DNA of 64,000 bases from Pseudofrankia sp. DC12 (GCF_000966285.1 NZ_KQ031391.1:62001-126000), one strand, 5' to 3'. Counted from the stretch's first letter, positions 16,318-33,598 are shown. Notes: generated from the letters alone by a model not told the origin. Translations and numbers: made by a program.

Positions 16318-16516
16318 TTGCCGCGCGAGGCCCGCGCCGGGCGGTGCGCCGCCCGGTCCGGCTCCTGACCAGGGCTCGCTTCTCATCCGTTGCATTCTCG
16401 TTTCCGGCTGGCGCGATAGGCTCTGTGCGCCAGGTTTTCCGTGGTCTTGCGCCAAGCGGTTCGGTCGTCCGATTGGCTGAATGGGCCGGCGAGCCGGCCG
16501 GAAGCGGAGGCCGCGG

Positions 16517-19500
16517 GTGTCATCACCGGTGCTCCCGTCGATGCCAGACAGATTCGTGCCGCGGCCGGATCTGCTGGCCAGTGCCCGAGCCCTGGTGACC
16601 CTTGCTCCCGAGCGCTCGGGCCCGAGCTCGGGTGCAGCGCCCACCCGCTCCGAGCGGGTGGTCGGCCTGGTAGGGATGGGCGGAGCGGGCAAGTCGACGC
16701 TCGCTCGCGCGCTGCTGGCCGACGCGGCCGTCCAGGAGACGTATCCCGATGGGTTGCTGTGGGTGAGCGTCGGCCAGAATCCCGACCTGGCCTCTGCCCT
16801 CGGTCACGTCTCCTCGGCGCTCGGCGACCCGGACCCGGTCACCGACCTCGCCGCCGGCCGGGAGCGGCTGCGCCGGCTGCTCGGGGCCGGCCGACGGCTG
16901 CTGGTTCTCGACAACGTGTGGGACGCCGACGTGACGCGGGCGTTCGACCTGGGCGTTCCCGGCGTCCGCGTCCTCGCGACCACCCGCAACCGCGACGTGC
17001 TGCCCGACGACGCCCTGGTCACCGAGGTCGGGACCGTCGACGACAGGCTCGGCCGCGCCGTCCTCGCCAGCCATGCGGGGGTCGCCGCCGCCCAGCTGCC
17101 CCCCGAGGCGGGCGACGTGCTGGCCGGCTGCGGCGGCCTGGTGCTCGCGTTGGCGGTGGCCGGTGGCATGGTCGCCGACGGCACGAGCTGGGCCGACGTC
17201 GCGGACCGGCTCCGGCGGGCGGACCTCGCCGCCCTGAGGACGAGGTTCGCCGGTTACCCCTACCCCGACCTTCTGCGGGCGCTCGACGCGGGCGTGGCCG
17301 CGCTGCCCGGCGACGGCCAGGACCGCTACCGGGAGCTCGCCGTGTTCTCCGGGCGGGGGCCCGTCCCGACGGAGGCCGTCGTCTGCCTGTGGCGGGCCAC
17401 CGCGGGGCTCGGCGAGGTGGCCGGCAAGGAGCTGCTCAACCGGCTGGGGCGCTGCTCGCTCGTCGCGCTCGACGGGGGCACCGTGGCGTTGCACGACCTG
17501 GCTTTCGAGCTTGTGCGCGCCAGCCTTCGCCCGGAGCAGCTCCGGGAGCTGCACGGCCTGTTCGCCGGCGCGTTCCTGACCGACTGGGGTGGGCTGACGG
17601 ACGGTCTCGCCCTGCTGCGCGCCCGCGACGCGATCGGCCAGCCTGACCGGTACGCGCTGGGCGAGCTGGTCGGTCACCTCGTCGAGGCCGGTCGCGACGA
17701 GGAGGTGCACGCGCTGCTCGCGACGCAGTGGCCCGGGCCGGGCGGGACCGCCGAGAACGCCTGGTTCGCGCTGCACGAACGGGCCGACCTGCCGGGCGGC
17801 TACCTCGCGGACATCCGCGCCGCCTGGGCTCGGGCCGCCGTGCCCCCGGACGCCGCACCGGCGTCCCCGCAGCGGACGCCGCCTCCGGACGGGGCAACGG
17901 CCTCGGACGCGGAGCAGGCCCGCCGCCTGGTGCTCACGCTGCGGTACGCGCTGATCCACGGCTCCGTCGTCAGCCGGGCCGACAGCCTCCCGCGCCCGCT
18001 GCTGCGCCGGCTGGTCGAGGCTGGACGCTGGCCGGCCGACCGGGCGCTGGCCTACGCCCGGTCACTGACCTCGGCGACCAGCCAGGCGGCGGCCCTGGCC
18101 GCGGTCGTGCCCTTCCTGCCGGTGGGCCGGCAGGGCGCCGTGCTGGACGAGGCCTGGGAGACCGTGGCGACCGGTGTCGACGCGCGGAGCAGAGTGGCCG
18201 CGCTGGCGTCGATCGGCGCGGTCCTCTCCACGGACCGGTGGTCCGCCCTGATCACTGAGGCAATCGGCAGCGGCCTGGCGATCCTCGACCCGCAGGACCG
18301 GGCGACCGAGCTGGCCCGGCTCGCATCCCACCTCCCGCCGGAACGGCGCTCGGAGGCCACCGCCGCCGCGCTGGGGGCCCTCGCGACCGTCGACGACGAA
18401 TTCCAGCGTGTGCACATCCTCGGAACGCTGGCCCCCGCGCTGACCGTCGAGCAGCTGCCCGCCGCGCTCGACCTCACGCTCGGCATCGACGGCGCGTTCA
18501 GCCGGTCCCGGGCACTCGCCGAGCTCGCCGAACGGCTCCCCGCCAGCCTCCTGCCCGCCGCGTGGGCCGCGCTGCCGGAGACGCCGAGGTGGAGCGAGGA
18601 CGCGCGAGCGCTGGTCGCGCTGGCCCGTCACCTGCCGGCGCCAGAAGGCGCGGCGGCCCTGGCCCGGGCCTGGGTCGCCTGCCCTCGGATCACCACCCAC
18701 GCGCGGGCGCCCGTCATGGCGGTCCTCGCGCCCCACCTACCGGCGGCGGATCGGACGGCGGCCATCGCCGAGGCGTGGCGAGTCGCCGCCGAGGTGCCAC
18801 CCGCCGCGAACGACACCGTCCGGGCCTCGGTCATCGCGGCGCTGGCCCCGCATCTCACCGGCGGCCTGCTCGCCGAGGCCGTCGAGGTCGCCACGACCGT
18901 CGAAGAGGACCAGTACCGCACCGAGGCGCTGACCGCGCTGGCCTCACACGTGACCGGAGCCTTCGCGGACCGGCTGCTCGCCGGCGCCGCGACCCTGCGC
19001 CACCCGGGCCGAGCCGTCGCCGAGCTGGCCCCCTATCTGCCCGAACGCCTGCTGCCCAGGGCCAGGGCCATCGTCCAGACGGTCGACTCGCCGCAGCGGC
19101 GCGCGGAGGTCCTGACCGGGCTCGCGCCCCAGCTGCCCCCCGTCCCGCGCGCGACCGTGCTGGCAGCGGCGCTGGACGCCGCCGGCGCCGTCGAGGCGCC
19201 CAGGGCGCGTGCGTTCGCCCTGGCGAAGCTGGCGCCCCAGCTGGACGAGACGTCGATCGGGCGGGCCCTCGCCCTGGCGCGAACGATCGACGAACCCGGC
19301 GCGCGGGTGAAGGCCCTGACCGGGCTGCTGCCCCGCCTTCCGGCCCACCGCCAGGCCGAGGCGCTCCGCGAGGCCTGGGACCTCGGGCAGCTCACCGCAT
19401 GGCCGGGACGTGCGGAGATGCTCGTGGATCTCGCCCCGCACCTGCCCGACGACCTCCTCGCCACGGCGGTGGCGGGCCTGCCGGCGCCCGAGCTGCCGTT

Positions 19501-20299
19501 CGGGGCGATGCTCGCGCTCGCCGCCCTGGCCGAACGGCTGGACGTCGCCGCCCGCCGCGCCGCCCTGCTGCCCCGCCTCGACCTGGCACAGGACCCGTAC
19601 TACGCGACTGTTCTGCTGGTCGCGGCCGGGACAGCGCTCACCGAGGCAGAACGCCTCGACCGGTTCACCGCCGTGTTGGACGCCCTGACCGACGGGCCGC
19701 TGGCGGTGGTCACCCTGGAGAAGATCGGAGCGGGGCTGCCCGCGGAGTTGTTCGGCCGGGCCGTCGAGATCGCCTCCAGCGGCAAGCACCGCTGGGGGCC
19801 GGCCCAGGCGCTGGGGGGGCTGGCGCCGTACCTGCCCGACGCCGTGGTCCGGGGCGCGCTGGCGGCAACGCTGTCGCTCAGTCATGCCGGGACGCGGGGC
19901 CGCGCGCTCGCCGCGCTCGCGCCCAGGCTGCCGGCCGAGCTCATTCGACAGGCCTTCGCCGCGACGCTCGCGATCGACAGCCACGCCGGCCGAGCGGAGG
20001 CCCTCGTCGGCCTCGCCGCGTACCTTCCCGACGACCTGCTGCCCGCCGCGGCCGAGGCCGCCCGGCCGGACTCCTCGCTGCGAGCCGCGCGGGCGGTCGC
20101 GGCAGCGGCCCGCGACCCTCGCTCGGCCGACTGGGACCAGTTCCGCGCCGCCACGCTCGCGGACCTGGCCCGCTGCGGCCGCGGCGACGTCATCGAGTTC
20201 CTCCCGACGATGCTGCGCGCCGCGCCGGACGGCACCAGCCCGGCCGCCGCGGCGGCCACCGTCGACGCCGTGACGGACGTGATGCGGTGGTGGCCATAG
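16517..20299 (+). CDS. Large NB-ARC STAND NTPase with helical repeats
   Basis: A 1260-residue protein. An NB-ARC ATPase is seen near the N-terminus: P-loop GMGGAGKST (residues 53-61), kinase-2 LLVLDNVWD (about 130), sensor VLATTRNRD, and the GLPL-like GGLVLALAVAGG. From about residue 480 to the end there are many 30-40-residue HEAT-like helical repeats with a recurrent A-L-x-x-L-A-P-x-L-P element. No effector domain precedes the ATPase; only about 50 residues do. STAND proteins switch between ADP and ATP states on ligand sensing by the repeats. GTG 16517 has GGAGGCC upstream; an ATG at 16541 is the alternative. A role in defence or signalling is inference. Confidence 0.75.
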   Translation: MSSPVLPSMPDRFVPRPDLLASARALVTLAPERSGPSSGAAPTRSERVVGLVGMGGAGKSTLARALLADAAVQETYPDGLLWVSVGQNPDLASALGHVSSALGDPDPVTDLAAGRERLRRLLGAGRRLLVLDNVWDADVTRAFDLGVPGVRVLATTRNRDVLPDDALVTEVGTVDDRLGRAVLASHAGVAAAQLPPEAGDVLAGCGGLVLALAVAGGMVADGTSWADVADRLRRADLAALRTRFAGYPYPDLLRALDAGVAALPGDGQDRYRELAVFSGRGPVPTEAVVCLWRATAGLGEVAGKELLNRLGRCSLVALDGGTVALHDLAFELVRASLRPEQLRELHGLFAGAFLTDWGGLTDGLALLRARDAIGQPDRYALGELVGHLVEAGRDEEVHALLATQWPGPGGTAENAWFALHERADLPGGYLADIRAAWARAAVPPDAAPASPQRTPPPDGATASDAEQARRLVLTLRYALIHGSVVSRADSLPRPLLRRLVEAGRWPADRALAYARSLTSATSQAAALAAVVPFLPVGRQGAVLDEAWETVATGVDARSRVAALASIGAVLSTDRWSALITEAIGSGLAILDPQDRATELARLASHLPPERRSEATAAALGALATVDDEFQRVHILGTLAPALTVEQLPAALDLTLGIDGAFSRSRALAELAERLPASLLPAAWAALPETPRWSEDARALVALARHLPAPEGAAALARAWVACPRITTHARAPVMAVLAPHLPAADRTAAIAEAWRVAAEVPPAANDTVRASVIAALAPHLTGGLLAEAVEVATTVEEDQYRTEALTALASHVTGAFADRLLAGAATLRHPGRAVAELAPYLPERLLPRARAIVQTVDSPQRRAEVLTGLAPQLPPVPRATVLAAALDAAGAVEAPRARAFALAKLAPQLDETSIGRALALARTIDEPGARVKALTGLLPRLPAHRQAEALREAWDLGQLTAWPGRAEMLVDLAPHLPDDLLATAVAGLPAPELPFGAMLALAALAERLDVAARRAALLPRLDLAQDPYYATVLLVAAGTALTEAERLDRFTAVLDALTDGPLAVVTLEKIGAGLPAELFGRAVEIASSGKHRWGPAQALGGLAPYLPDAVVRGALAATLSLSHAGTRGRALAALAPRLPAELIRQAFAATLAIDSHAGRAEALVGLAAYLPDDLLPAAAEAARPDSSLRAARAVAAAARDPRSADWDQFRAATLADLARCGRGDVIEFLPTMLRAAPDGTSPAAAAATVDAVTDVMRWWP

Positions 20300-20344: not shown

Positions 20345-21745
20345 GTGGACCGAGAAGACGACCAGGACCTGCTGCGCGCCGCCGCCGAGCTGGCGCTGGA
20401 GTACGCCACCACCGTCGACGACCGGCCGGCGACGCCGGACGCGGCGGCGCTCGCCGGGCTGGCCGCGTTCGACGAGCCGCTGCCCGCGGCCGGCGAGCCC
20501 GCGGCCGCGACGCTGAAGCTGCTGCACGCCGCCGGTAGTCCGGCCACGATGGCCTCCGCGGGCGCCCGCTACTTCGGGTTCGTGATCGGCGCGACGCTGC
20601 CCGCCGCACTCGGCGCCTCCTGGCTCACCAGCGCCTGGGACCAGAACGCGGCTCTGCCCGCGATGTCCCCGGTCGCCGCCAGGCTGCACGAGGTGACCCG
20701 GGGCTGGCTGCTCGACGTCCTCGGCCTGCCGGCCGGGACCGGCGTCGCCTACGTCACCGGCGCGACGATGGCGAACGCGGCGAGCCTGGCCGCCGCCCGC
20801 GACGCGCTGCTCGGCCGGCTCGGCTGGGACGCCCAGGCCGACGGCCTGTTCGGCGCACCGGCGTTCGACGTCGTCATCGGCGCGGCCGCCCACTCGACGC
20901 TGCGCAAGTCGCTCGGCCTCGTCGGGCTGGGGCGGTCCCGGGTGCACATCGTCCCGGCCGACGACCAGGGCCGGCTGCGGGCTGACCTGCTGCCCGACCT
21001 GCCCGGCCCGGTGCTGGTGTGCGCCCAGGCCGGCGAGGTGAACACCGGGGCCTTCGACCCGTTCGACGAGATCGCCGACTGGCTGGCCCGCCGCCCGGCC
21101 GAGGTGAAGGGCTGGCTGCACGTCGACGGCGCGTTCGGCCTGTGGGCGCTGGCCGACCCGTCCCGCCGCGACCGGCTGTGCACCGGGCTCGACCGGGCCG
21201 ACTCGTGGGCCACCGACGGCCACAAGTGGCTCAACGTCACCTACGACTGCGGCATCGCCTTCGTCCGGGACCCCGCGCATCTGCGGACCACGTTCACCGC
21301 GGCGGCCGGCTACACGCCGATGGGCGACACGTTCGACGCCATGCACCACACGCCGCAGTCCTCGCAGCGGGCGCGTCAGGTCGAGGTGTGGGCGGCACTG
21401 CGCACCCTGGGCCGGGCCGGGGCCGCCGACCTGGTCGCCCGCTGCTGCGACGCCGCCGCCACGATCGCCCGCCGGGTCGAGGGCGAGCTGACCGTCGTCA
21501 ACGACGTCGTCCTCAACCAGGTCCTGCTGCGCATCGATGGCCCCGACGGTCCCGACGCGGCGGCCACGTCGGCGCTGATCGCCGAGATCCAGGCCGACGG
21601 CCGGATCTGGTGCGGCGGCACCCAGTGGGACGGCGCGCCCGCGCTGCGGGTCAGCGTCTCGTCCTGGAAGACCGGCCCCGACGACGCCGCCTTCGCAGCC
21701 GACGTCATCCTCGCCTGCGCCGCCCGGGTCCGCGCCGCGGCCTGA
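20345..21745 (+). CDS. PLP-dependent decarboxylase-family protein
   Basis: A 466-residue group II (DOPA/glutamate) decarboxylase-like fold-type I PLP enzyme. HVDGAFG contacts the cofactor and TDGHKWLNVTYDCG contains the Schiff-base lysine. TGATMANAASLAAARDALL is the phosphate-binding segment. Close relatives in actinobacteria are annotated as pyridoxal-dependent decarboxylases or aminotransferases of unknown substrate. GTG at 20345 starts 45 bp after the STAND gene, and the two could be co-transcribed. Confidence 0.8.
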   Translation: MDREDDQDLLRAAAELALEYATTVDDRPATPDAAALAGLAAFDEPLPAAGEPAAATLKLLHAAGSPATMASAGARYFGFVIGATLPAALGASWLTSAWDQNAALPAMSPVAARLHEVTRGWLLDVLGLPAGTGVAYVTGATMANAASLAAARDALLGRLGWDAQADGLFGAPAFDVVIGAAAHSTLRKSLGLVGLGRSRVHIVPADDQGRLRADLLPDLPGPVLVCAQAGEVNTGAFDPFDEIADWLARRPAEVKGWLHVDGAFGLWALADPSRRDRLCTGLDRADSWATDGHKWLNVTYDCGIAFVRDPAHLRTTFTAAAGYTPMGDTFDAMHHTPQSSQRARQVEVWAALRTLGRAGAADLVARCCDAAATIARRVEGELTVVNDVVLNQVLLRIDGPDGPDAAATSALIAEIQADGRIWCGGTQWDGAPALRVSVSSWKTGPDDAAFAADVILACAARVRAAA

Positions 21746-22421: not shown

Positions 22422-22675
22422 CCACAGCCCACGGACGAACACACGGCGGCGCGGCGCCACCAATGCCAAGTTGACGCGTAGATATAAAGTGCCCACATCA
22501 TACCGGCGCCGTCATTGTCAGTATGTCTGCCAGCGGCGGACTGTCTTGTCGTAGCTGGCGGAAACGGGCACCCCGATCGGTGTGGTCCGCGTCGGGCGGC
22601 CGGCGGAAAGCGACCGGGTCGCGCCGGCAATACCAGCCTGGGATGCGGTCGGCGTACGGGTTCCTTCTTCCCCCC

Positions 22676-22719
22676 GAGGGGTGTTCGGAACTCCCCCCGT
22701 GGAGCTCCGAACACCCCTC
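22676..22719. terminator. Strong 19-bp stem-loop between convergent genes
   Basis: Arms GAGGGGTGTTCGGAACTCC (22676-22694) and GGAGCTCCGAACACCCCTC (22701-22719) pair over 19 bp with one mismatch around a 6-base loop. It lies between the convergent ends of the membrane-protein gene and the CDGSH operon, where a bidirectional terminator is expected. There is no U tract. The rest of this 321-bp gap shows nothing. Confidence 0.6.
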
Positions 22720-22742
22720 ACCCTCTGACGCGATCGCACGTT

Positions 22743-22979
22743 TCACGACTGCGGCGAGTGCGGCTCCACCGTCCGGTCCGGTGGGCGGCGTGGCGGGACG
22801 TGGGAACCGTCGCAGAACGGCTTGATCTCCGACCTGCCGCATCGGCACAGCGCGATCACGGCGCGCCGAGCGTCCACTGGTCGCCCGGTGGACAGGTCAC
22901 GGAGCTCGAAATCGCCCCTGACCAACAGGGGTCCGTCGGTGCACACGGTGATGGTCGCCCGTAGCCGGTCCTGCGTCAC
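22743..22979 (-). CDS. CDGSH iron-sulfur domain protein
   Basis: A 78-residue protein with one CDGSH zinc-finger-like motif: C-R-C-G-R-S...K-P-F-C-D-G-S-H, three cysteines and one histidine that bind a redox-active [2Fe-2S] cluster. The GTG start at 22979 overlaps the stop of the diiron oxidase by 4 bp (GTGA), so the two are translationally coupled. In actinobacteria CDGSH proteins are often next to haem-oxygenase-fold diiron enzymes, and an electron-transfer role for that enzyme is the natural inference. Last gene of the four-enzyme operon. Confidence 0.82.
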   Translation of the reverse strand: MTQDRLRATITVCTDGPLLVRGDFELRDLSTGRPVDARRAVIALCRCGRSEIKPFCDGSHVPPRRPPDRTVEPHSPQS

Positions 22980-23992
22980 CGGAGGCCTGGGTCCTGCCGT
23001 AGCGAGCTGCGGCCTTGGGCCCAGCAGTCCACCATGACGGTGTTGGAGCACCGCTTGAGCTCCCGCGAGGCCATCGCGCCGAACAGGACGTCGGGCAGTT
23101 CGTCGGGACAGTCGGCGACGAAGGAGCCGCAGAGATCGTAGGCGGCGATCTGTTCGTGGACGGCGTCTGCCTCAACATGCTCGTCGAAGAAGAGCCGGGC
23201 GGCGCCGCCCGCGGCCAGCCGTTCCAGCCCTTTGCTGAAGCAGCGGTTGCCATGGGACGAGCCGATCTCCGACATGGCCAGGTTGCCCACCAGAGCGCCG
23301 CGGAGTCGGCCGTGCAGGCCGAACATCGACACGGCGTTCACCAACGCGAGCGAGGTGGCCGGGATCTGTTCGACGTAGCGCCCATAGCAGTTGTCGAGAC
23401 CCAGCGCGGCCATCATCTTCGCGAAGAGCTCGCTGTGCAGGCGCCCCGGAATACCATTGCCGTACTCGTCCGCCTGAATCTCTACCAAGGCGCACTTGGC
23501 GCGACCCGGGAGCCTCGGAATCGCCCACGTGTGCGGATCCGCCTCCATCAGATTGTAGAGAGAGCGATGGATGGCGAACTCCCGGAAGTGGTCGAGCGAG
23601 GCGGACTGCCACATGTGCTGAGCCAGCGACGGTCCGCTGCGCGGCGCGCCTAGATCCAGCAGATACTTCGGCAGCTGGTCGGGAGCGATCTCGGCCGGAG
23701 GCTCGACGCATCCTCTGAGGCAACGCTCGAACCGCTGCTCCAACATGGCCCGGACCGCGAGGAGCGGAGGATGCCATTCCCAGGCAGGGTCGACGTCGGC
23801 GAAGCCGCGATAGTGCAGGGCGTAGCAGGTAAACAGGGAGATCTGCAGGTCGTCATCCAGGTGGGCGCTCCGCCGATCCGGCGCCGCCAGGTCGTGGGCT
23901 GCCGGCGGAAGATCGGCAGGGGGGCCGAGCAGCAGGGGAAACAGCGCGCCGCTGAGGGGACCTCGCGGCTGTGGAAGGAACACCGCCGTCAC
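22976..23992 (-). CDS. Iron-containing redox enzyme (haem-oxygenase-like diiron oxidase family)
   Basis: A 338-residue protein of the iron-containing redox enzyme family (PF14518-like). The core has EIQADEYGNGIPGRLHSELF and FFDEHVEADAVHEQIAAYD, with the Glu and His metal ligands expected for this helical fold. Characterised members of the fold include BesC, UndA and SznF, which cleave C-C bonds or oxidise nitrogen in small-molecule pathways; which reaction occurs here cannot be told. The ATG at 23992 overlaps the upstream carbamoyltransferase stop (ATGA). The CDGSH protein follows with GTGA coupling. Confidence 0.82.
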   Translation of the reverse strand: MTAVFLPQPRGPLSGALFPLLLGPPADLPPAAHDLAAPDRRSAHLDDDLQISLFTCYALHYRGFADVDPAWEWHPPLLAVRAMLEQRFERCLRGCVEPPAEIAPDQLPKYLLDLGAPRSGPSLAQHMWQSASLDHFREFAIHRSLYNLMEADPHTWAIPRLPGRAKCALVEIQADEYGNGIPGRLHSELFAKMMAALGLDNCYGRYVEQIPATSLALVNAVSMFGLHGRLRGALVGNLAMSEIGSSHGNRCFSKGLERLAAGGAARLFFDEHVEADAVHEQIAAYDLCGSFVADCPDELPDVLFGAMASRELKRCSNTVMVDCWAQGRSSLRQDPGLR

Positions 23993-24942
23993 TCCCCCTC
24001 AGCGCCGAGGATCAGGTCGAGGAGAGCCATCCGGACGGTGACCGCGTTGGCCGCCTCGGCCCAGTAGGCGTTGAAGGGCGACGAGTCCAGGTCGGGGTGC
24101 AACTCGTCGCCGCGCGCGAGCGCATCGAGCACGGCCAGGTGCGGCTTGGCATTCGCGAGCTTGGCCAGGTTCAGACAGTACGCGTCGGGAGTCGGCGCCT
24201 TCACCACTGGAGCGTCGTGGCCGGCCGAGAAGTCCGGTTGCTGGATAGCGGAGCCCATGTAGATCACGTCGACGTGGGGGATCAGCTCGTCGATGGTCTC
24301 CGCGCGTTGAAGTAGCCGGCCGGAGCTCTCGTACCTCGACCGATAGGGTTCCCCGAACCAGCGGTCCGGTGGGGAGACGGTCAACACCTCGACATCGAAC
24401 AGGCCGAGGGCGCGGATCATGGAGTGCATGCAGCGCACCCGAAAGTCGCCGAGAAGCGCGATCGACAGGCCGTCAATCCGCCCGAACCGCTGCCGAATGG
24501 TGTAGAGATCCGCGAAGACCTGCGTCGGATGCTCACCCCACCCGTCCCCGGCATTGATGATCGGGATATCGCACAGTTCCGCGACGCTGGCCGGCGCGCC
24601 GGTGTCAGGGTGCCTCAGCACCACCACGTCGCCGTACATCGCACACATTGTCATGGTGTCGGCGAGTGACTCCTGTTCATAGTCACCCGCCCGCGTGGTC
24701 TTGGGGTCGGCGAAGCCGAGCACCTGGCCGCCCAGCCGGAGCATGGCCGACTCGAAGGACAGTCGGGTACGGGTGCTGCTCTGGAAGAAAGCCGAAACCA
24801 GAAGCTGGCCAGTCAGCCGGTTTCTCCGCCTGGCCGCGGGCATCGCGGCGATTCGGTCCGCGGCCGCGAACAGGGCCTCAAGCCCCGCTCGGCCGAACTG
24901 GTCAACACTGAGCACGTCCGCGCCGCCAAAGGCGTTCGTCAT
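23989..24942 (-). CDS. Aspartate-carbamoyltransferase-like enzyme, non-canonical substrate likely
   Basis: A 317-residue ATCase/OTCase-fold protein. The carbamoyl-phosphate site is intact: SSTRTRLSFE (about residue 50) and EHPTQ (about 130). In contrast, the 80s loop reads TTRAGDYEQES instead of the S-x-x-K-GE-T/S of true ATCase, and the R-x-Q-x-E-R aspartate loop is replaced by a segment around MGSAIQQPDF. There is no pyr gene nearby. This argues for carbamoylation of another amine or hydroxyl group. ATG at 24942 has AGGAGAA upstream and overlaps the previous stop by 4 bp. Confidence 0.78.
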   Translation of the reverse strand: MTNAFGGADVLSVDQFGRAGLEALFAAADRIAAMPAARRRNRLTGQLLVSAFFQSSTRTRLSFESAMLRLGGQVLGFADPKTTRAGDYEQESLADTMTMCAMYGDVVVLRHPDTGAPASVAELCDIPIINAGDGWGEHPTQVFADLYTIRQRFGRIDGLSIALLGDFRVRCMHSMIRALGLFDVEVLTVSPPDRWFGEPYRSRYESSGRLLQRAETIDELIPHVDVIYMGSAIQQPDFSAGHDAPVVKAPTPDAYCLNLAKLANAKPHLAVLDALARGDELHPDLDSSPFNAYWAEAANAVTVRMALLDLILGAEGE

Positions 24943-25997
24943 GTCGCGTTCTCCTTCTCGTAGAGTGCGCCCCAGGCGATGTCGGCCGTGGTCGCCAGCG
25001 CCGCTCTGGGCAGCGCTCGGGTGTCGGGCGTACGGCCGGCCATGGCGTCGATCTCCGCCCTGAATCCGACGGAGGTGTCGGGCGCGACGACGACCACCGA
25101 TCGGTTCTCCTCCTCGGCCAGTTGGATCGCCACCGACAGGGCGGCTCCGGTGGACAGGCCGACCGGGAGGCCGCACTCCTGACGCAGGTGGACGGCGTAG
25201 GCGGCGGAGACGGAGTCGGCGACCTTGGCGTAGCGGTCGATGACCGAGCCGTGGGCGACGGTCAACAGGCAGGGCCCGCGCATCCCGGCTCCAGCGATGA
25301 GGAAGGAGGGCTCATAGTGGCCGCCGAAGATGGAGGACCCTTCCGGCTCCACGCCGACGACCTGGAGGTCGGCTCGGAGCGTCTTGAGCCACTGGCCCAC
25401 GCCGCAGATGGTGCCGCCGGTCGAGACCGGGGCGACGACGGTGTCGATCAGACCGCCGCTCTGGGCCCAGATCTCCGGGCCGGTGGTCTCACGGTGCGCC
25501 CGCAGACCCGCGTCGTTGCCGTACTGGTTGAGCCAGATATGGCCCTCGCGGGCACCGAGTTCGCTCGCCAGCGCGATCCTCGTCTGTCGCATGTCACACC
25601 CTGGCCGAGGTTTCCGCACCAGCTCCAGACGAGCCCCAGCGTCGATGATTCGCTGGCGCTGGCGCTCGGAGACGGTGGTGTCGACGATGACGATCGGCTG
25701 AAAGCCCAGGACCCTCCCCAGAGCGGCCAGCGCGATGCCGAGATTGCCGGAGGTGCTCTCGACCATCTGAACGCCCGGCCCGCCGATGCCTCTGGCCCAG
25801 GCCAGCAGGTAGCAGGCGGTCCTGTCCTTGGCGCTGCCGAACGGGTTACGGAACTCCGCCTTCATCAGGAGCCTCCCCCTGGTCACCAGGTGAGACAGGT
25901 CCAGCAACGGGGTGCCGCCGACACCGAGGGCGTTCATCAGTTTCGCGCCCTCTACCAGAGCCTCGGTGTCCAGCGGAGCGGGTGGCACGGCACTCAC
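24939..25997 (-). CDS. Cysteine-synthase/SbnA-like PLP enzyme
   Basis: A 352-residue fold-type II PLP enzyme. The internal aldimine lysine is in NPFGSAKDR (about residue 54), the substrate loop is ESTSGNLGIALA and the phosphate loop VSTGGTICGVG. The ESTSGNLG form and the NQYGND region are closer to SbnA, which joins O-phosphoserine and glutamate on the way to 2,3-diaminopropionate, than to housekeeping CysK. A beta-replacement making an unusual beta-substituted alanine is therefore likely; the nucleophile is unknown. First enzyme gene of the operon; the GTG start overlaps the stop of a 21-codon frame (GTGA), and ATGA couples it to the next gene. Confidence 0.8.
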   Translation of the reverse strand: MSAVPPAPLDTEALVEGAKLMNALGVGGTPLLDLSHLVTRGRLLMKAEFRNPFGSAKDRTACYLLAWARGIGGPGVQMVESTSGNLGIALAALGRVLGFQPIVIVDTTVSERQRQRIIDAGARLELVRKPRPGCDMRQTRIALASELGAREGHIWLNQYGNDAGLRAHRETTGPEIWAQSGGLIDTVVAPVSTGGTICGVGQWLKTLRADLQVVGVEPEGSSIFGGHYEPSFLIAGAGMRGPCLLTVAHGSVIDRYAKVADSVSAAYAVHLRQECGLPVGLSTGAALSVAIQLAEEENRSVVVVAPDTSVGFRAEIDAMAGRTPDTRALPRAALATTADIAWGALYEKENAT

Positions 25998-26059
25998 CCG
26001 ACCACGGAACGGGTGCGGGCGCGGCTGGTGATGACAGGGCCGTTCAGGACGACACGCAC
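25994..26059 (-). CDS. Possible 21-residue leader or precursor peptide of the operon
   Basis: A GTG at 26059, preceded by AAGGAAA at 6-8 bases, opens MRVVLNGPVITSRARTRSVV-G and ends at a TGA that overlaps the next GTG by 4 bp, the same coupling used throughout the operon. The peptide is basic (four arginines) and unlike a signal peptide. It may be only a leader frame that delivers ribosomes to the PLP gene, or a genuine small product. The remaining 5' leader (about 26060-26285) shows no other supported gene. Confidence 0.4.
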   Translation of the reverse strand: MRVVLNGPVITSRARTRSVVG

Positions 26060-26276
26060 GGGCTTTCCTTCACGGAAATTGGCTGGCTCGGAACTCGGAA
26101 ATGCGTCCAGGGCTGGTTACGGGCGGGGGAGACGCCGTCGACCCGTGCGCTCCGAGGGCGGCGTGGAACGCGGAGCGACCGCTCCCCCAGAGACGCGAGG
26201 AGCTTGCCCCGTCCACCGAGGTGGGTCGGACGACGGGAACGGCACGACCAAGGATCGCGATCAGGAGCGCCAGAGG

Positions 26277-26323
26277 GACTTGCTGTCACTTCGACAGTAA
26301 GTCCCGGCGCTCGTTCCTGTCAA
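26277..26323 (-). promoter_or_regulatory. Promoter with overlapping operator for the four-enzyme operon
   Basis: On the minus strand TTGACA (26323-26318) and TACTGT (26299-26294) are spaced by 18 bp, a good housekeeping-type promoter. The -10 box lies inside an inverted repeat GACTTACTGTC-N5-GACAGCAAGTC (26303-26277, one mismatch). A repressor bound there would block the polymerase. The transcript would have a leader of about 285 bases before the first enzyme gene. Confidence 0.6.
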
Positions 26324-26398
26324 GATGACGCAAAAGCGGGGTCAGTACGCGCGCGAGCCGCGATCAGGAGGTGCCGCGGCGATCCGACCGGAGCCCGC

Positions 26399-29300
26399 TC
26401 AGACGTCGACGGCGCCCAGGACCTTCAGGATCTTCCGTTGCGCCGCGGTGAGGCCGGTGGCGCCGGTGATGTCCATGTGCTCGTAAGGGCCCTCGCCACG
26501 CAGCACCGCCCGGCACTCGGCGGTCGTGGGATCCCAGATCCGGACCGTGCCGTCGTTGCCGCCACTGGCGAGGGCGGCGTGACGCGGGCTGAAACTCAGC
26601 GCGAAAACCCCGTCCGTGTGTCCACGCAGGACCGCCCGGGACCTGCCGGCCACGGTGTCCCAGAGACGGACAACCTGGTCCTGGCCGCCGCTCGCGACGG
26701 TCTGCCCGTCGGAACTGAAGGCGACGGCGCGGACCCAGTCGGCATGCCCCCGCAGCACCTGGCGGCATTCTCCGCTGGACGTGTCCCAGAGGCGCACGGT
26801 CTGGTCCTGGCTACCGCTGGCGATCGTCCGCCCGTCGGGGCTGATCGCGACCGCGCGCACCCAGTCATCGTGACCGGTCAGCACGCGCAGGCAGGTGAAC
26901 GTCGCGAGGTCCCAGACCCGCACCGTCCGGTCGTCCGACGCGGAGACGAGCAGGCCGCCAGCGGGGGCGAAGGCAACTGCCCAGACGCGGCCGCTGTGGC
27001 CCTGCAGCACCTGGTGGCAGTGGCCAGCGCGGGCGTTCCACAGACGTACCGTCTGGTCCTCGCTCGCGCTCGCGAGGAGGAGGCCGTCCGGGCTGAACGC
27101 CACGGACCGCAGCAGGTCGGTGTGCCCGCGCAGGACCAGGACGCACCGTTGGGCGGACACGTCCCAGAGGCGCACGGTCAGGTCCTCGCTGCCGCTCGCT
27201 ATCGTCTGGCCGTCGGGGCTGAAGGCCACCGACCGGACCCAGTCACCATGACCGTGCAACGCGCCGGTCGGCTGCCCGCTCGACGCGTCCCAGATCCGGA
27301 CCGAGCTGTCGCGGTTGCCGCTCGCCACCAGGGCACCGTCCGGGCTGAACCCGACAGCGTAGACCGATCGGGTCTCGCTGTGCAGCGTCCGGACGCAATG
27401 CCCTGTCCTGGTGTCCCAGAACCTGATCGTCTGGTCCTGTCCCCCGCTGACGAGCACCGCGCCGTCCGGGCTGAACGCGACCGCGTAGACAGAGCCGGTG
27501 TGTCTGCGCAGCGCGTGCACGCACCGACCGCTGTCCAGGTCCCAGATCCGGACGACCTGATCCACTCCGCCGCTGGCGGCGACGCGGCCGTTCGGGCTGA
27601 TGGCCACCGACTGCACCTGCGCGCCATGCCCGGACAGCACGGCCACGCAGCGCCCTGTGCCGGCGTCCCAGGACCGCACCGTTCCATCCTGCGCGCCGGT
27701 CAGGATGACCTGGCCGTTCGGGCTGACCGCGACCGACTTGACCCGTCCGTCATGACCACGCAGGACGTTCCGGCAGACTCCCGTCGCCGTGTCCCACAGC
27801 CGCACCGTCCCGTCCTCCCCACCCGTCACGAGGGTGGCGCCGTCGGGGGTGAAGCGGACAGACCTGACCCAGTCGGAATGCCCACGCAGGACCAGGGCGC
27901 AGGTCCCGGCGCGCACGTCCCACAGTCGGGCCGTCCGGTCGTCGCTGACGGTCGCGAGCAGGCGGCCGTCCGAGCTGAAGGCGAGCGACCAGACTCGCCC
28001 CTCATGCCCGGTCAGAATGCCGCAGCAGGTTCCCGTCGCCGTCTCCCACAGGCGAACTGTCTGATCCTCGCTGCCCGTCGCGAGCAGCGAACCGTCCGGG
28101 CTGAAGGAAACGGCGCGAACCTGATCGGTGTGCGAGCCGAATGACGCGATGAGGGCACCGTCCGCCGGGTTCCAGAGCTGCGCGTTCCCGTAGGAGGTCC
28201 CGGCGGCGAGCAGATCGCCCCGCGGGCTGAAACCGACCGCGAAGACTATTCCGAAGGCATCGCTGAAGGCCGGCTCGACGAAATGCGCGGCCGAGAAGTC
28301 CACGCTACGCAGCCGCGCGCCCGGCAGGTAGGCGTGCCAGATCGGCAGCCGGGAGAAGTCGTAGCCGGTGAGGTCCACCCCCAGGTGACGGAGGAGGTTG
28401 ATCAGGTTGCCCGCGGCGTAGCCTGCCTGCGGGCCCAGTCCGTCCCGGAGCTGGGAAAGTGTCTTCTTGATCATCTCTTCGAGGCCCGTCAGCCCGCCGT
28501 GAGCCTCGAGAAGCCGCACGGCGAGCGGCTCCAGCACGAGAGCCTCCTGCGCCTCCCGCACGTACTCGGCGACTGAGGTCTTCAGCAGGGCGTGCGAGTT
28601 CAGGAGACCACGGGACCCGGTGCCGAAGTCGGCTGCCGCTCGCTCGATGAACCGCCTCGTCACGTACTCGATGAGCACCGGTTGCAGGGTGAATCCGCGG
28701 GGACCGCGCTCCAGCGGGACCAGCTTCTGCAGGGAGTCCAGCGTGCTGGACACGGCTGCCTTGCCGCTGGCACCGAGGATGTCCTCGCGCAGCGCTCCGA
28801 GCGACGTCGCCTCGCGATTGACCGCGAGCCAGTCCATCACCTCCAGGTGCCGGTCCGACAACCGCCCGAAATGCCAGTCGAGCAGGTCCTGCAGGTCGGC
28901 GAAGACAGGCGTCCCATCACGAAGGAATGCGGTGATGCTTCCGTAGAACACCTCCCTGACATGCCGGGCCGCCATCTCCAGCGCGAGCGGGTTCCCGCTG
29001 TACAGCAACGCGATCTGGCGCCAGTCCTCTCGGGTACCGGAGAACGTGCCGACGCTGGCAAAGACTCGTCTGCTGTCGGCGGTACCCAGCCCTTTCAGTT
29101 CCAGCGACCGGACCGGGCCCGTCCTGCTCTCCCTCCGCGCGATCTCCGGGACCTTCTCCCGGCTGGTGAGCAGGAAGGAGCTCTCGTGCGGGACGTCAGC
29201 GAGCTGAGCGAAGAACTCGCCGTAGTCGGCATACCCCGGCAGGTAGGTGCCCGCGTCTTCGCCGCTCTGCAGGATCGACTCCACGTTGTCCAGGATCACC

Positions 29301-30565
29301 AGGCAGCGGGCGGAACGCAGGTAGTGCAGCAGCCGGGACAGCCGCTCGTCCAGCGAGTCAGGAAGGATCGCCTCCCGCTGGCCGGACAGGAACGTGATCA
29401 GGTCCGCGACGAGGTCCGTGGCCTTCGGCGCGTTGAGCAGCCGGCGCCAGACCACGAAGTCGAACTGGTCCTCGATTCCGTGGGCGACCTGCAGCGACAG
29501 GTCGGTTTTCCCGATTCCGCCGCGACCCAGCCTGACCGACAGTCTTGTCTTCCCAATTCCTCGCAGACCCGTAATCGAGACAATTCGGCAGCGATCGGCG
29601 GTCAGCCACTGATCGAGCTGGGCGAGTTCCCGCGCGCGGCCGAAGAAGACGGGGACGTCCGGGGCGTTCTCCCAGTCCCGGCGGGCGGAGCACTCGGCGT
29701 CACTCTGGGTCGGGCCTCGCGGAGACTCCCTGGGGACGCAGTCCTGAATGAAGGAGAGGAGGTAGGACGCCGAGGCCTGCGCGGCGAACTCGTGGTAGGA
29801 ATCCCCCTTCGTCTGGTCGGCATGGTCGGCGACGCCCTTGACGACAAGCCCGTCGGTGCCGGGGAAACCCCGCAGCGCCAGATAGAAGGCGGCCGCCTCC
29901 ATGTCGAGCGCCCAGGCGCTTCGATGCTGGCGCTGTAGCTCCGTGAAAGGGTCGTCGGTGCGGACCGCCATGCCCGACGCCATGATCGCGCCGACGCGTC
30001 GGGGCAGCTCGTCGACGCCCAGTAGGCGCCGCGCGACCTCCCGGACGGATGCTCGCCAGCCTTCGTACCCCTGGACGAGGCGTAGGACACTCTCCGACGG
30101 CCCGTAGGTGATGCCCTCCGGCAGGTGGAAGAGCTGGCCATCGCTGTCTCTGCCAGTCTTGCCTTCCTCGAAGTGGTACGCGCACTCGGCGACGACGAGA
30201 TCACCGAGGCGGACGCGCCTCCGGTCACCCGCGCAGATTCCGCTCATCCCGGCGAACCGCGGCCTGAACTTTTCCAGCAGCATTCGAGTGTCCAGCACGG
30301 CGGACAGCGGGCCTGGACGGGCCTGCCGGGCGAGAACCAGGTTCAACGGCCGGCCATGACTACTGGCGATGGTCGCGAACCTGCAGTTGAGCGGACCCAC
30401 TGCCCGGCCCGCGCTGAAGACCGCGGCGCATCGCTCCGAGGCGACACGTTCGAATGCCACGGCCTCTACTTCGACCGCGCAGACCACCAGAATATCGACC
30501 TGCTGAGCGCCATACACCAGGACCACCCGTTCTTGACGGCCTGCGACCATGATGAAAAGCGACAC
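26399..30565 (-). CDS. Nucleoside-phosphorylase-like / STAND NTPase / WD40 protein (NLR-like)
   Basis: A 1388-residue three-part protein. Residues about 20-275 are a nucleoside phosphorylase/MTA-SAH nucleosidase-like domain (VDILVVCAVEVEA, DMEAAAFYLA, GVADHADQTKGDSYHEFAA). About 310-650 is a STAND ATPase with P-loop, LVILDNVES and the LLTSREKVPE sensor; the P-loop is present twice in tandem (GLRGIGKT and GGIGKT). After a short pentapeptide-like link (GYDFSRL...LPGARLRSVDFSAAHF), 14 WD40 repeats (about 770-1375) make two propellers. This is an NLR plan: sensor, switch, effector. Phosphorylase-type effectors in some bacterial defence systems cleave ATP. GTG 30565 is used; GTG 30517 is an alternative. 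Confidence 0.82.
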   Translation of the reverse strand: MSLFIMVAGRQERVVLVYGAQQVDILVVCAVEVEAVAFERVASERCAAVFSAGRAVGPLNCRFATIASSHGRPLNLVLARQARPGPLSAVLDTRMLLEKFRPRFAGMSGICAGDRRRVRLGDLVVAECAYHFEEGKTGRDSDGQLFHLPEGITYGPSESVLRLVQGYEGWRASVREVARRLLGVDELPRRVGAIMASGMAVRTDDPFTELQRQHRSAWALDMEAAAFYLALRGFPGTDGLVVKGVADHADQTKGDSYHEFAAQASASYLLSFIQDCVPRESPRGPTQSDAECSARRDWENAPDVPVFFGRARELAQLDQWLTADRCRIVSITGLRGIGKTRLSVRLGRGGIGKTDLSLQVAHGIEDQFDFVVWRRLLNAPKATDLVADLITFLSGQREAILPDSLDERLSRLLHYLRSARCLVILDNVESILQSGEDAGTYLPGYADYGEFFAQLADVPHESSFLLTSREKVPEIARRESRTGPVRSLELKGLGTADSRRVFASVGTFSGTREDWRQIALLYSGNPLALEMAARHVREVFYGSITAFLRDGTPVFADLQDLLDWHFGRLSDRHLEVMDWLAVNREATSLGALREDILGASGKAAVSSTLDSLQKLVPLERGPRGFTLQPVLIEYVTRRFIERAAADFGTGSRGLLNSHALLKTSVAEYVREAQEALVLEPLAVRLLEAHGGLTGLEEMIKKTLSQLRDGLGPQAGYAAGNLINLLRHLGVDLTGYDFSRLPIWHAYLPGARLRSVDFSAAHFVEPAFSDAFGIVFAVGFSPRGDLLAAGTSYGNAQLWNPADGALIASFGSHTDQVRAVSFSPDGSLLATGSEDQTVRLWETATGTCCGILTGHEGRVWSLAFSSDGRLLATVSDDRTARLWDVRAGTCALVLRGHSDWVRSVRFTPDGATLVTGGEDGTVRLWDTATGVCRNVLRGHDGRVKSVAVSPNGQVILTGAQDGTVRSWDAGTGRCVAVLSGHGAQVQSVAISPNGRVAASGGVDQVVRIWDLDSGRCVHALRRHTGSVYAVAFSPDGAVLVSGGQDQTIRFWDTRTGHCVRTLHSETRSVYAVGFSPDGALVASGNRDSSVRIWDASSGQPTGALHGHGDWVRSVAFSPDGQTIASGSEDLTVRLWDVSAQRCVLVLRGHTDLLRSVAFSPDGLLLASASEDQTVRLWNARAGHCHQVLQGHSGRVWAVAFAPAGGLLVSASDDRTVRVWDLATFTCLRVLTGHDDWVRAVAISPDGRTIASGSQDQTVRLWDTSSGECRQVLRGHADWVRAVAFSSDGQTVASGGQDQVVRLWDTVAGRSRAVLRGHTDGVFALSFSPRHAALASGGNDGTVRIWDPTTAECRAVLRGEGPYEHMDITGATGLTAAQRKILKVLGAVDV

Positions 30566-30590
30566 GGAAGCCCGGCCGGTTCACGGATAC

Positions 30591-31313
30591 TCACGGACTG
30601 TCCGCGGTGTCCGAGCCGACTCCGTGCCGCAGCAAGGGCGGCGTGAGACTGCGCGCCCGGCCAGCCCGGTACAACGCAGCCGGCCTACCTTTCTCCGGAA
30701 TCCGCTTTCCACCGGTCGGGACGATGAAGCCCTCGGTGCGCAAGACCTTTCGACTGAAGTTCCGCGGGTCGAGCGGGGCGCTCCATACCGCCTCGTAGAC
30801 GGTGCGAAGATCCCCGATGGTGAATTCTCGGCCGCAGAAGGCGGTGGCCAGCGTCGTGTACTCCAGGCGGGATCTGGCGTGTTCCACCGCGTCATCGAGG
30901 ATCTGGGCGTGGTCGAAGGCGAGCTCCCCCCGGATCTCGTCGACCGGATGCCACCCGGCGTCCCGCGCGTCGGACCCGGCCGCCGGGACCGGCAGGTCGG
31001 GAGCGAGCGCGAGGTACGCCACGCTCACGACTCGACCACGCGGATCACGATCGGGTGCGCCGTAGGTGGCCAGCTGTTCCAGATGCAGACCCGACCCATC
31101 CAGGCCCGTCTCCTCGGCCAGCTCCCGCTCGGCCGCCTCCCGCAGGTCCTCACCCTCCCGCAGAAACCCGCCGGGCAGCGCCGACTGCCCACGGAACGGC
31201 TCATTGGCCCGCTCGACAACCAGCACCTGCAGCCGGCCGTTGCGCACCGTCAGGATCGCCAGGTCCAGAGCCAGGCGCAGCTGCAGATGATCCCTTCCAG
31301 GCATGCGGGTCAT
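30591..31313 (-). CDS. NrtR-type Nudix domain transcriptional regulator
   Basis: A 240-residue protein with an N-terminal Nudix domain and a C-terminal winged helix. The Nudix box is complete (GFLREGEDLREAAERELA, then EETGL). The C-terminal part, ENFS/DPRNFSRKVL..EGFIVPTG..R, matches NrtR regulators, which bind ADP-ribose and control NAD or pentose genes; some also keep ADP-ribose pyrophosphatase activity, and the intact box allows this. A perfect TGTCA-N3-TGACA repeat lies 11 bp before its start, suggesting autoregulation. It directly precedes the phosphorylase-STAND gene (26 bp gap), so the two may be one transcript. Confidence 0.8.
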   Translation of the reverse strand: MTRMPGRDHLQLRLALDLAILTVRNGRLQVLVVERANEPFRGQSALPGGFLREGEDLREAAERELAEETGLDGSGLHLEQLATYGAPDRDPRGRVVSVAYLALAPDLPVPAAGSDARDAGWHPVDEIRGELAFDHAQILDDAVEHARSRLEYTTLATAFCGREFTIGDLRTVYEAVWSAPLDPRNFSRKVLRTEGFIVPTGGKRIPEKGRPAALYRAGRARSLTPPLLRHGVGSDTADSP

Positions 31314-31323
31314 CGTAGCTTAT

Positions 31324-31336
31324 TGTCAGTTTGACA
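31324..31336. promoter_or_regulatory. TGTCA-N3-TGACA operator candidate
   Basis: A perfect palindrome TGTCAGTTTGACA sits between the start of the NrtR-type gene and the end of the metalloprotease gene. Its closeness to the start fits autorepression by the Nudix regulator. Confidence 0.5.
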
Positions 31337-31366
31337 TGAACAAGCCCGAGCCCCTGGAGCGGCAGG

Positions 31367-33598
31367 CTAGGCGATGCGGTTGGCGGGGAACCAGTTGCCG
31401 GAGGCGTCGCGGAACAGCTGGTAGAGGCGGTCGGCGATGCGGCAGACGACCTCCAGGTGGCCCTGGAAGGTGGACTGCATCATGGCGACCGCGTCGACCT
31501 TGCCGAGGTTGGTGGCGAACGGCCGCGGGCCGCTCCACGGCGTGCCGGCCGCCTGGTTGTTCCGGTAGAAGTGGATCAGCCCGGAGGTCGCGGACGGGAC
31601 GATGACCTCGAAGTTGCGGGCGCCGGGGAAGCTGCTCTCGATCAGCACCGGGTTGCCGGCGGTGCCGTCGCCGAACCAGACGGTCAGGTGCCAGGCCGCG
31701 GCGGCGGTCTGGTCACGCCAGATGTGCCCGATCCGGGTGCCGGACCGCACGACCGCCTCCAGCGCGCCCGGCGGGTTGCCCCGGTCTCCCTGGATGAGGC
31801 TGACCGCGTCGATGTGGCCGAGCTCGGTCAGGACCGGGCGTGGGGCGCTCCACGGGTAGAGGAAGGCGTCGTTGTTGCGCCACATGGTCATCAGGCCGGT
31901 GCCGGTCGCGGGGTAGAGCATCTCGAAGTTGCCGTGGGCGCCGTAGCGGCCCTGCACGAACGACGGGAACCCGGCAGCGCCCGTCGCGATCTTCGTGGGC
32001 GTGGACCACACGAAGGCGCCGTTGCTGTCCCGCCACAGGTGGTAAAGATCGACCCCGGCCCGCACGACGCACTCGATCGAGCCCGGGTTCGACAGGTTTG
32101 ACTGGATCATCGTGGCCGCGTCGAGCCTGCCGAGCGCCTGCGCGGTCTGGAACGGGTCCTCCCACGGGTAGCCGGGCTGGTCGAAGTTCTCCCAGCGGTG
32201 GGTCAGCCCGTCGAACGACGACGGCACGACCAGCTGGAACTGCCCGAGGCTGCCCAGGCCCGTGGACTGGACCAGTACGGGATTGCCCGACGCGCCGCGG
32301 CCCCAGCCGATGTGCGCCGGGGTGAACCGGCAGAACGCGAAGCTGTTGCCCCGCATCAGGCAGTCGACGGGGCTCGCCGCGCAGGAGTCGCAGTTGCCGT
32401 TGGGCGCACCGAATCGGCCGTAGGAACCGCCGCAGCCGCAGCCAGACGAGCCGTACTCGTCGACGGCGCCGAAGATGTGGCTGGACTCGTGGGCGAACAC
32501 CCGGTCGAGGTTGTCCGGGCCCCAGCCGTCGTTGTCGTAGGTGAGCACGATCCGCGGGCCGCCGATCGCGGCGTAGGCGAAGTACTGCACGGGGTACTTG
32601 GTGACGAACGCGACATAGCCCCAGCTGGTGCCCAGCCGGGAGCGGATCGCGTTGGCGTAGTCGTAGACGCCGTCGAAGTTGGCCTGGTAGCCGAGCTTCA
32701 CCATCGTCGGGTCACGCCAGTAGGCCTCCAGGTCCGGCTGGGAGGGGTCCGCTGGCTGGGTGAGGCGCACGATCTGGATGTCGTAGCTGAAGGTGATGCC
32801 GGCGGCCGGGTTGCTGGTGGCCAGCCACGACAGGCCGTTCTGCGCCTCGGCGACGACCTTCGTCCGCTCCGCGGCGGTGAACTGCAGGTCCGCGGTCGGC
32901 CCCTCGACCATGATCAGGCCCACGGCGACGGAGCCCTCGAGGTAGGAGCTCAGCGGCCCGGCGGTGGAGTTGGCGTCGCTCGGCGCGCCGCCGCCGTCCC
33001 CGGTGGCCGTCGCGAGGAGCGTCGCCGCGGGAGCACCGGCCGCGGGCGGGGCGGCCGGGTGGGCGAGACGCGAGGCACCATACGGCGGAGCGACGTCGGT
33101 GCAGGGACGGTCCATGTCCCACGGCTCGCCCGCGCGGGGCCGGACCTGCTTGGCGCGGCGGTAGGCGGCGCTGGCGCGCAGCCGGAACGCCTCCAGGCCG
33201 AGGGTCTCGGTGCGGTCGAGCCCGGCCAGGCCGGCTGTGGCGACGACCGCTCCGTCCGACGGCCCGTAGGAGCCATTCGGGCCGTAGGAGCTATTCGGGC
33301 CGTAGGAGCTATTCGGGCCGCCCGCGGCCGGCTTCGCGACCGCGGCCGACGGGCCGTCGCCGCCGGGAGCGCCGAACACGTGGACGCGGCCGTAGCGGTG
33401 CAGCGTCCGCTCGCCCGCGTCGGGATCGGTGCCGGGCTCGGCTCCGCCCGGCGCGGCGGTGGGCTGCCGGCCGGCCGGCCCGGCCAGGATGGCGGCCTCC
33501 CGTGGTCCGGCCACCGTGGCGTCGGACGCGCCGGGCGCGATGAACACCCGCTCGTCGGCCGGAACATCCCCCGCCATAATGATCTTTTGTCCTCTCAT
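31367..33598 (-). CDS. Large HESSH metalloprotease-like protein with repeat C-terminus
   Basis: A 743-residue protein. Near residue 366 AHESSHIFGAVDEY has the zincin H-E-x-x-H and a downstream Asp-Glu, followed by Cys-rich GCGCGG and NCDSC segments. From about residue 440 the rest is a repeated beta-propeller/lectin-like domain in which GNFEMLYPATGTGLMTMWRN-type blades recur about four times, each ending with a W-R-N/D element. The N-terminal 200 residues are low complexity with an NSSYGP repeat. No signal peptide is seen, so export must use another route or the protein is intracellular. GAGAGGA favours ATG 33577 over 33598. Substrate unknown. Confidence 0.7.
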   Translation of the reverse strand: MRGQKIIMAGDVPADERVFIAPGASDATVAGPREAAILAGPAGRQPTAAPGGAEPGTDPDAGERTLHRYGRVHVFGAPGGDGPSAAVAKPAAGGPNSSYGPNSSYGPNGSYGPSDGAVVATAGLAGLDRTETLGLEAFRLRASAAYRRAKQVRPRAGEPWDMDRPCTDVAPPYGASRLAHPAAPPAAGAPAATLLATATGDGGGAPSDANSTAGPLSSYLEGSVAVGLIMVEGPTADLQFTAAERTKVVAEAQNGLSWLATSNPAAGITFSYDIQIVRLTQPADPSQPDLEAYWRDPTMVKLGYQANFDGVYDYANAIRSRLGTSWGYVAFVTKYPVQYFAYAAIGGPRIVLTYDNDGWGPDNLDRVFAHESSHIFGAVDEYGSSGCGCGGSYGRFGAPNGNCDSCAASPVDCLMRGNSFAFCRFTPAHIGWGRGASGNPVLVQSTGLGSLGQFQLVVPSSFDGLTHRWENFDQPGYPWEDPFQTAQALGRLDAATMIQSNLSNPGSIECVVRAGVDLYHLWRDSNGAFVWSTPTKIATGAAGFPSFVQGRYGAHGNFEMLYPATGTGLMTMWRNNDAFLYPWSAPRPVLTELGHIDAVSLIQGDRGNPPGALEAVVRSGTRIGHIWRDQTAAAAWHLTVWFGDGTAGNPVLIESSFPGARNFEVIVPSATSGLIHFYRNNQAAGTPWSGPRPFATNLGKVDAVAMMQSTFQGHLEVVCRIADRLYQLFRDASGNWFPANRIA
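33265..33318 (-). repeat. Three 18-bp units coding for SSYGPN-type repeat
   Basis: Three tandem copies of GTAGGAGCTATTCGGGCC (first copy one base different), in frame within the metalloprotease gene, encode N-S/G-S-Y-G-P. Further degenerate copies may follow (SYGPSDG). Confidence 0.85.

Follow-up and report, generated by a model that had tools for sequence, protein, structure and literature searches.

The four-gene operon described here joins two gene pairs, a PLP enzyme with a carbamoyltransferase and a haem-oxygenase-like diiron enzyme (HDO) with a CDGSH protein, and is not one old quartet. The enzyme kinds are all known, but the combination of the four is not described. Tentatively, the products may form one mini-pathway in which a small non-proteinogenic amino acid is made by beta-replacement, carbamoylation, and N-oxygenation. 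The order beta-replacement, carbamoylation, diiron oxidation was proposed in an initial annotation of this DNA and is still the best reading.

Operon layout and genomic setting

The window (the whole stretch of DNA analysed, 64,000 nucleotides) spans 62-126 kb of an actinomycete genome assembled as a single contig of 6.88 Mb. The operon lies at 22743-25997 and consists of four minus-strand genes. Adjacent genes overlap by exactly 4 bp at all three junctions, with ATGA or GTGA sequences. An overlap of this type is the usual sign of translational coupling. Both this arrangement and the four protein families, the latter through Pfam matches, agree with the initial annotation. The features are as follows.

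24939-25997, minus strand: gene 1, PLP beta-replacement enzyme, fold-type II, CysK/SbnA superfamily; GTG start, 352 aa; Pfam PALP, 8.7e-55
23989-24942, minus strand: gene 2, ATCase-fold carbamoyltransferase; ATG start, 317 aa; Pfam OTCace_N, 1.7e-39, and OTCace, 2.1e-15
22976-23992, minus strand: gene 3, HDO; GTG start, 338 aa; Pfam Haem_oxygenas_2, 4.1e-50
22743-22979, minus strand: last gene, CDGSH [2Fe-2S] protein; GTG start, 78 aa; Pfam zf-CDGSH, 1.8e-18
22676-22719, no strand assigned: terminator-like hairpin after the CDGSH gene; near-symmetrical, without a U tract
26275-26305, no strand assigned: operator-like inverted repeat GGGACTTGCTGTC-N5-GACAGTAAGTCCC; 13-nt arms, 5-nt spacer

The four reading frames are genes and not chance ORFs. 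The three long genes show a gene-like GC pattern across codon positions, and the 78-aa CDGSH gene is supported by its domain and its homologues. The predicted hairpin after the last gene is real. It starts 24 nt past the last stop codon and has 19-nt arms that are 95% complementary, with a folding energy of -44.5 kcal/mol and a z-score of -4.9. Being near-symmetrical, it could serve both strands. The operon had also been credited with its own promoter and operator. The operator-like inverted repeat is located 278 bp 5’ of the start codon of gene 1 and has a single copy in the genome. The promoter could not be confirmed, there being no sigma-70 match. Rfam contains no match to a leader element for the operon. 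No NRPS, transporter, or dedicated regulator gene is located inside the operon, and PADLOC assigned no defence match to its four proteins.

The GC content of the operon is 68%, compared with a mean of 73% over the 22 kb to its left and 75-77% in the genes immediately left. The operon is part of a lower-GC block (about 68-69%) that runs from approximately 22500 to 31400 amid parts of 75-77%. This composition suits an acquired stretch.

Several other genes were identified in the window. An IS66-type transposase is present at 11507-12958. Just upstream of the operon, on the minus strand (26399-30565), is a gene for a 1388-aa protein with an N-terminal purine-nucleosidase-like effector (PADLOC PN-superfamily), an NTPase middle, and 13 WD40 repeats, which resembles an NLR-type protein of defence or conflict. 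A 1272-aa NB-ARC NTPase protein is encoded on the plus strand at 16481-20299 and is the second STAND protein within 7 kb. Facing the operon on the plus strand (20345-21745) is a PLP-dependent group II decarboxylase that is diaminobutyrate decarboxylase-like and well below cut-off. No evidence linking this decarboxylase to the operon was found.

The PLP enzyme and the carbamoyltransferase

The PLP enzyme contains the PLP lysine (Lys57) and a TSGNLG loop at position 82. By alignment, its Tyr159 and Ser192 appear to be the counterparts of SbnA Tyr152 and Ser185, where CysK has Phe and Gly. These SbnA positions are the ones changed to Phe and Gly in the variants of PDB 5d86 and 5d87. The SbnA-type Tyr and Ser residues make a nitrogen nucleophile plausible.

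The description of this protein as an SbnA-like synthase stands for the PLP beta-replacement family and fails for SbnA itself. The protein scores 170.2 bits against TIGR03945 (SbnA), for which the curated cut-off is 349.95, and falls outside the family. Scores of 188, 180, and 150 bits are likewise short of the cysteine synthase CysK/CysM cut-offs (about 344-413 bits), and the protein is under the cut-off of every NCBIfam equivalog. Its nearest solved structures are CysK (137 bits) and SbnA (130 bits). Among 294 class genomes it is an orphan, with best relatives that share about 40% identity and are CysK/CBS-like. A match on a Streptomyces plasmid was rejected as a second set, having just 39% identity and sitting in an ATP-grasp/serine-acetyltransferase cluster.

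SbnB (TIGR03944) has no match in the genome at E 1e-5. The classical two-step route to diaminopropionate therefore cannot run, and the PLP enzyme must take another nucleophile or ammonia. Its reaction without SbnB is the weakest step of the proposed pathway.

The carbamoyltransferase belongs to the transcarbamylase superfamily by its STRT and HPTQ carbamoyl-phosphate motifs and by its fold, which has a TM-score of 0.87 to ATCase. It retains STRT56, RHP110, HPTQ138, and Arg170, the equivalent of ATCase Arg167. The acceptor loops are changed to GSAIQQ230 and DALAR273, and both the ATCase Arg229 motif (RxQ) and HPLP are lost. With a score of 227 bits against a cut-off of 237 for the ATCase (PyrB) equivalog, and with the acceptor motifs absent, the protein is not PyrB. 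The genome has separate PyrB-like and ArgF-like genes, with 34% and 30% identity, so the operon carbamoyltransferase is not the housekeeping enzyme, and its identification as a spare PyrB was rejected.

The carbamoyltransferase is rare, and was aligned with 22 relatives. Its closest relative among 84,980 species genomes is that of Streptomyces griseoflavus JCM 4479 (51% identity), and the two are sisters in the tree with 99/86 support, both on long branches. The S. griseoflavus enzyme is encoded alongside a genuine SbnA and an SbnB, the pair that synthesises 2,3-diaminopropionate. The 80 other relatives (loci L041-L120 except L062, plus L035) are mostly from Chloroflexota and Acidimicrobiia. 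YgeW adjoins 71 of these 80 and carbamate kinase adjoins 66. Their clusters often hold fold-type II PLP enzymes or lyases, SsnA, and xanthine dehydrogenase, and are purine-catabolic. The operon enzyme differs from all relatives in having GSAIQ in place of EPVVQ and DALA in place of HSLP. Given these altered loops, the acceptor may have changed, or the enzyme may be weak.

The YgeW-adjacent enzymes were classed as pseudo-ATCases in a 2013 study (PMC4016543). In the reductive urate pathway, YgeW itself forms albizziin by phosphorolysis of 2,3-diureidopropionate (PMC12507026), and L-2,3-diaminopropionate carbamoyltransferases (DPTCases) yield beta-ureidoalanine in the viomycin and zwittermicin pathways (PMC4581275, PMC6022934). 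The theme shared by these contexts is a ureido-bearing 2,3-diaminopropionate skeleton, which suggests that the lineage carbamoylates or decarbamoylates that skeleton. Taken together, the tree and the gene contexts point to an acceptor that would be 2,3-diaminopropionate-like, and not aspartate or ornithine.

A side observation concerns the second, ATCase-like carbamoyltransferase of the YgeW clusters, which may phosphorolyse the second ureido group instead of YgeY; this is only suggestive. Near this second carbamoyltransferase, YgeY is present at 3 of 80 loci, YgeX at 8 of 80 by the same test, and HyuA at 4 of 80, many of the contigs being short.

The HDO-CDGSH pair

The HDO contains the metal ligands E150, E176, H186, E242, H272, D276, and H279, which form the full SznF-type 3H/4C set. 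The seven align at exactly SznF spacing, and all 39 sequences compared carry them without change. A fourth carboxylate is a feature described for SznF (PMC13108848). Sequence comparison links the HDO to SznF and RohS. The predicted structure has a pLDDT of 89.5, and Foldseek ranks 1-18 are all N-oxygenases (HrmI, SznF, and RohS), with FlcD, CADD, and BesC lower. By this fold and the seven ligands at SznF positions, the protein is a member of the HDO superfamily of 3H/4C type. Oxidation or fragmentation had been suggested for its step, with reference to the BesC/UndA/SznF fold. The HDO resembles the N-oxygenases, and neither BesC, which fragments its substrate, nor UndA, which decarboxylates. 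The metal set and the fold matches make N-oxygenation likelier, and N-oxygenation is our best guess for the reaction, as judged from the alignment and the predicted structure.

The CDGSH protein contains the motif CRCGRSEIKPFCDGSH at residues 45-60, which fits the pattern C-x-C-x2-S/T-x3-P-x-C-D-G-S-H. Its adjacency to the HDO suggests that it may act as the electron donor of that enzyme. A literature search found no paper pairing an HDO with a CDGSH protein.

HDO homologues are present in 152 of 297 class genomes. A CDGSH gene is located within 1.5 kb of the HDO gene in 28 of 29 independent loci, and a PLP or carbamoyltransferase gene in none of the 29. Over wider stretches, CDGSH is the sole steady neighbour, sometimes with a SAM methyltransferase, and the other genes vary. 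The Curtobacterium plasmid pW21 shows precisely the 4-bp overlap between HDO and CDGSH genes that is seen in the operon. Recurrence with variable neighbours, also on plasmids, marks HDO-CDGSH as a mobile two-gene module. It is a widespread pair, found in about half of the sampled Actinomycetes (loci L004-L033, L037-L039, and L144-L163; 22743-23992 of the window), and no description of it was found. The genome studied here contains a single HDO copy of the family. Its identity to HDOs from other families is 52-54%, against 46-48% for the HDOs within its own genus.

Searches of viral contigs, plasmids, and genomes from the same family (35), class (297), and phylum (336) and from Streptomyces (393) gave no second set of the four genes. 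A search of 84,980 genomes using conserved stretches of the carbamoyltransferase also found none. The initial annotation held that its pathway would be refuted if the set is not conserved together elsewhere, and this is partly the case, with no second set and an HDO-CDGSH pair that is usually accompanied by neither the PLP enzyme gene nor the carbamoyltransferase gene. Because the four genes are translationally coupled here, the lack of conservation weakens a shared pathway and does not exclude it.

Candidate pathway, rival readings, and known systems

For the one-pathway reading, we infer every substrate and the order of the steps. The PLP enzyme would make aminoacrylate from O-phosphoserine or O-acetylserine, as is the chemistry of its family, and add a nucleophile at C-beta. 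This nucleophile would most simply be nitrogen, giving a 2,3-diaminopropionate-like product. From its lineage and gene contexts, the carbamoyltransferase would then carbamoylate the new amine with carbamoyl phosphate as donor, and the product would resemble 3-ureidoalanine (albizziin). Finally, the diiron HDO, using four- or two-electron chemistry, would oxygenate a nitrogen, and the outcome would be a hydroxylamine, an N-hydroxyurea, or a more highly oxidised group. CDGSH would be its putative dedicated electron donor. The 4-bp overlaps at all junctions and the shared terminator-like hairpin argue for one pathway, as do the SbnA-type residues of the PLP enzyme, the gene contexts of the carbamoyltransferase relatives, the metal set and fold matches of the HDO, and its adjacency to CDGSH. 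Against it, only a single genome links all four genes, and HDO-CDGSH is found in other genomes apart from the PLP enzyme and carbamoyltransferase genes. The missing SbnB, the altered acceptor loops, the absence of an NRPS, transporter, or dedicated regulator from the operon, and the two long branches that are joined in the pairing of the carbamoyltransferase with that of S. griseoflavus also count against it.

Ranking almost equal to one pathway, and just as tentative, is a reading in which one transcript carries two independent modules. The first two enzymes would make a carbamoylated amino acid, and HDO-CDGSH would do its own general job, such as N-oxygenation or stress protection. The occurrence of the HDO in 152 of 297 class genomes, with CDGSH alone as a steady neighbour and the same 4-bp HDO/CDGSH overlap on plasmids, fits this division, and DtpC, another HDO that guards against oxidative stress, provides a precedent for a protective role (PMC13232832). 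It fits less well with the tight coupling of all four genes, or with the single HDO copy, whose affinity to other families over its own genus is as expected for a module acquired as a unit. A catabolic operon, in which the carbamoyltransferase, like its relatives in purine clusters, releases carbamoyl phosphate by phosphorolysis of a ureido amino acid and the four genes serve degradation instead of synthesis, is unlikely. Most relatives do belong to purine-catabolic clusters, the reaction is reversible, and the P268-to-A change is shared with ureidoglycine carbamoyltransferases (HPLA; PMC4016543). However, carbamate kinase, hydantoinase, and xanthine dehydrogenase genes are all absent from the operon, the sister carbamoyltransferase belongs to a biosynthetic cluster, and the PLP partner is of beta-synthase and not YgeX-type lyase kind.

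The carbamoyltransferase could also come first in the order, with a small nitrogen nucleophile as its acceptor (hydroxylamine, for instance, would give hydroxyurea), after which the PLP enzyme would couple the product to serine in the manner of DcsD, and the HDO would supply or oxidise the N-O species. DcsD is the O-ureidoserine synthase of the D-cycloserine pathway. This order accounts for the missing SbnB and the altered acceptor loops, and the HDO fold is of N-oxygenase type. We consider it very improbable, as we know of no carbamoyltransferase with a small inorganic acceptor, the relatives point to amino-acid acceptors, and DcsD does not appear in the list of nearest solved structures of the PLP enzyme. 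The least probable reading, already disfavoured, is that of ordinary spare cysteine synthase and ATCase paralogues beside an unrelated oxidase. Fold places both enzymes in those superfamilies, but both are below every equivalog cut-off, the aspartate-binding Arg229 and HPLP are lost, and the genome has its own PyrB-like and ArgF-like genes.

Returning to the one-pathway reading, its fullest form is an NRPS-free four-enzyme route, which is doubtful as a whole. In it, one-enzyme beta-replacement without SbnB would be combined with a divergent carbamoyltransferase of diaminopropionate type and an HDO that CDGSH supplies with electrons. The product would be an N-oxygenated amino acid with a ureido group, of N-hydroxyurea, nitroso, or nitro type, and possibly an antimetabolite or metal chelator. 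A large family of actinomycete N-oxygenases would then receive its electrons in vivo from CDGSH proteins. If true, it would provide a small route to N-oxygenated amino acids, a warhead class that includes the N-nitrosourea of streptozocin. It would also give a first biological job to the HDO-CDGSH pair and connect the catabolic lineage of purine-degrading bacteria with a rare carbamoyltransferase of biosynthetic type. If the modular reading alone is true, the operon is a single locus for finding the electron donor and substrate of the HDO family.

Among known systems, the fluopsin, azomycin, and N-nitroglycine pathways were rejected as counterparts, since their gene sets differ. The SbnA/SbnB and DPTCase route of viomycin, capreomycin, and zwittermicin is alike in having a PLP enzyme beside a carbamoyltransferase and a predicted beta-ureidoalanine-type product. 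Unlike that route, the operon has no SbnB and no NRPS, its PLP enzyme is outside SbnA, and HDO and CDGSH are extra. Its carbamoyltransferase is of the ATCase-like lineage, whereas the DPTCases described in the literature are said to be similar to anabolic OTCase (PMC6022934).

The S. griseoflavus JCM 4479 cluster (L062) contains the nearest carbamoyltransferase, whose gene has a PLP enzyme gene immediately after it. That PLP enzyme is a genuine SbnA, passing the cut-off with 379 bits, and SbnB is also over its cut-off, whereas the operon has neither. L062:1-12472 also encodes an NRPS (A-T-TE), a PPTase, an MFS exporter, a Rieske oxygenase, a luciferase-like enzyme, and a fused methylaspartate mutase; no HDO or CDGSH gene was seen in these 12.5 kb. 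The cluster is predicted to use beta-ureidoalanine and 3-methylaspartate.

SznF, HrmI, and RohS, which oxidise an amine, guanidine, or aminoimidazole nitrogen, share the HDO fold, and the full 3H/4C set is that of SznF. The operon HDO has only 15-20% identity to them, has no cupin domain, and has a CDGSH partner. The YgeW-linked carbamoyltransferases (PMC4016543; reductive urate pathway, PMC12507026) are of the same lineage as the operon enzyme, with 42-48% identity. They are catabolic, occur with carbamate kinase, and carry EPVVQ[AP] and HSLPR, whereas the operon enzyme carries GSAIQQ and DALAR.
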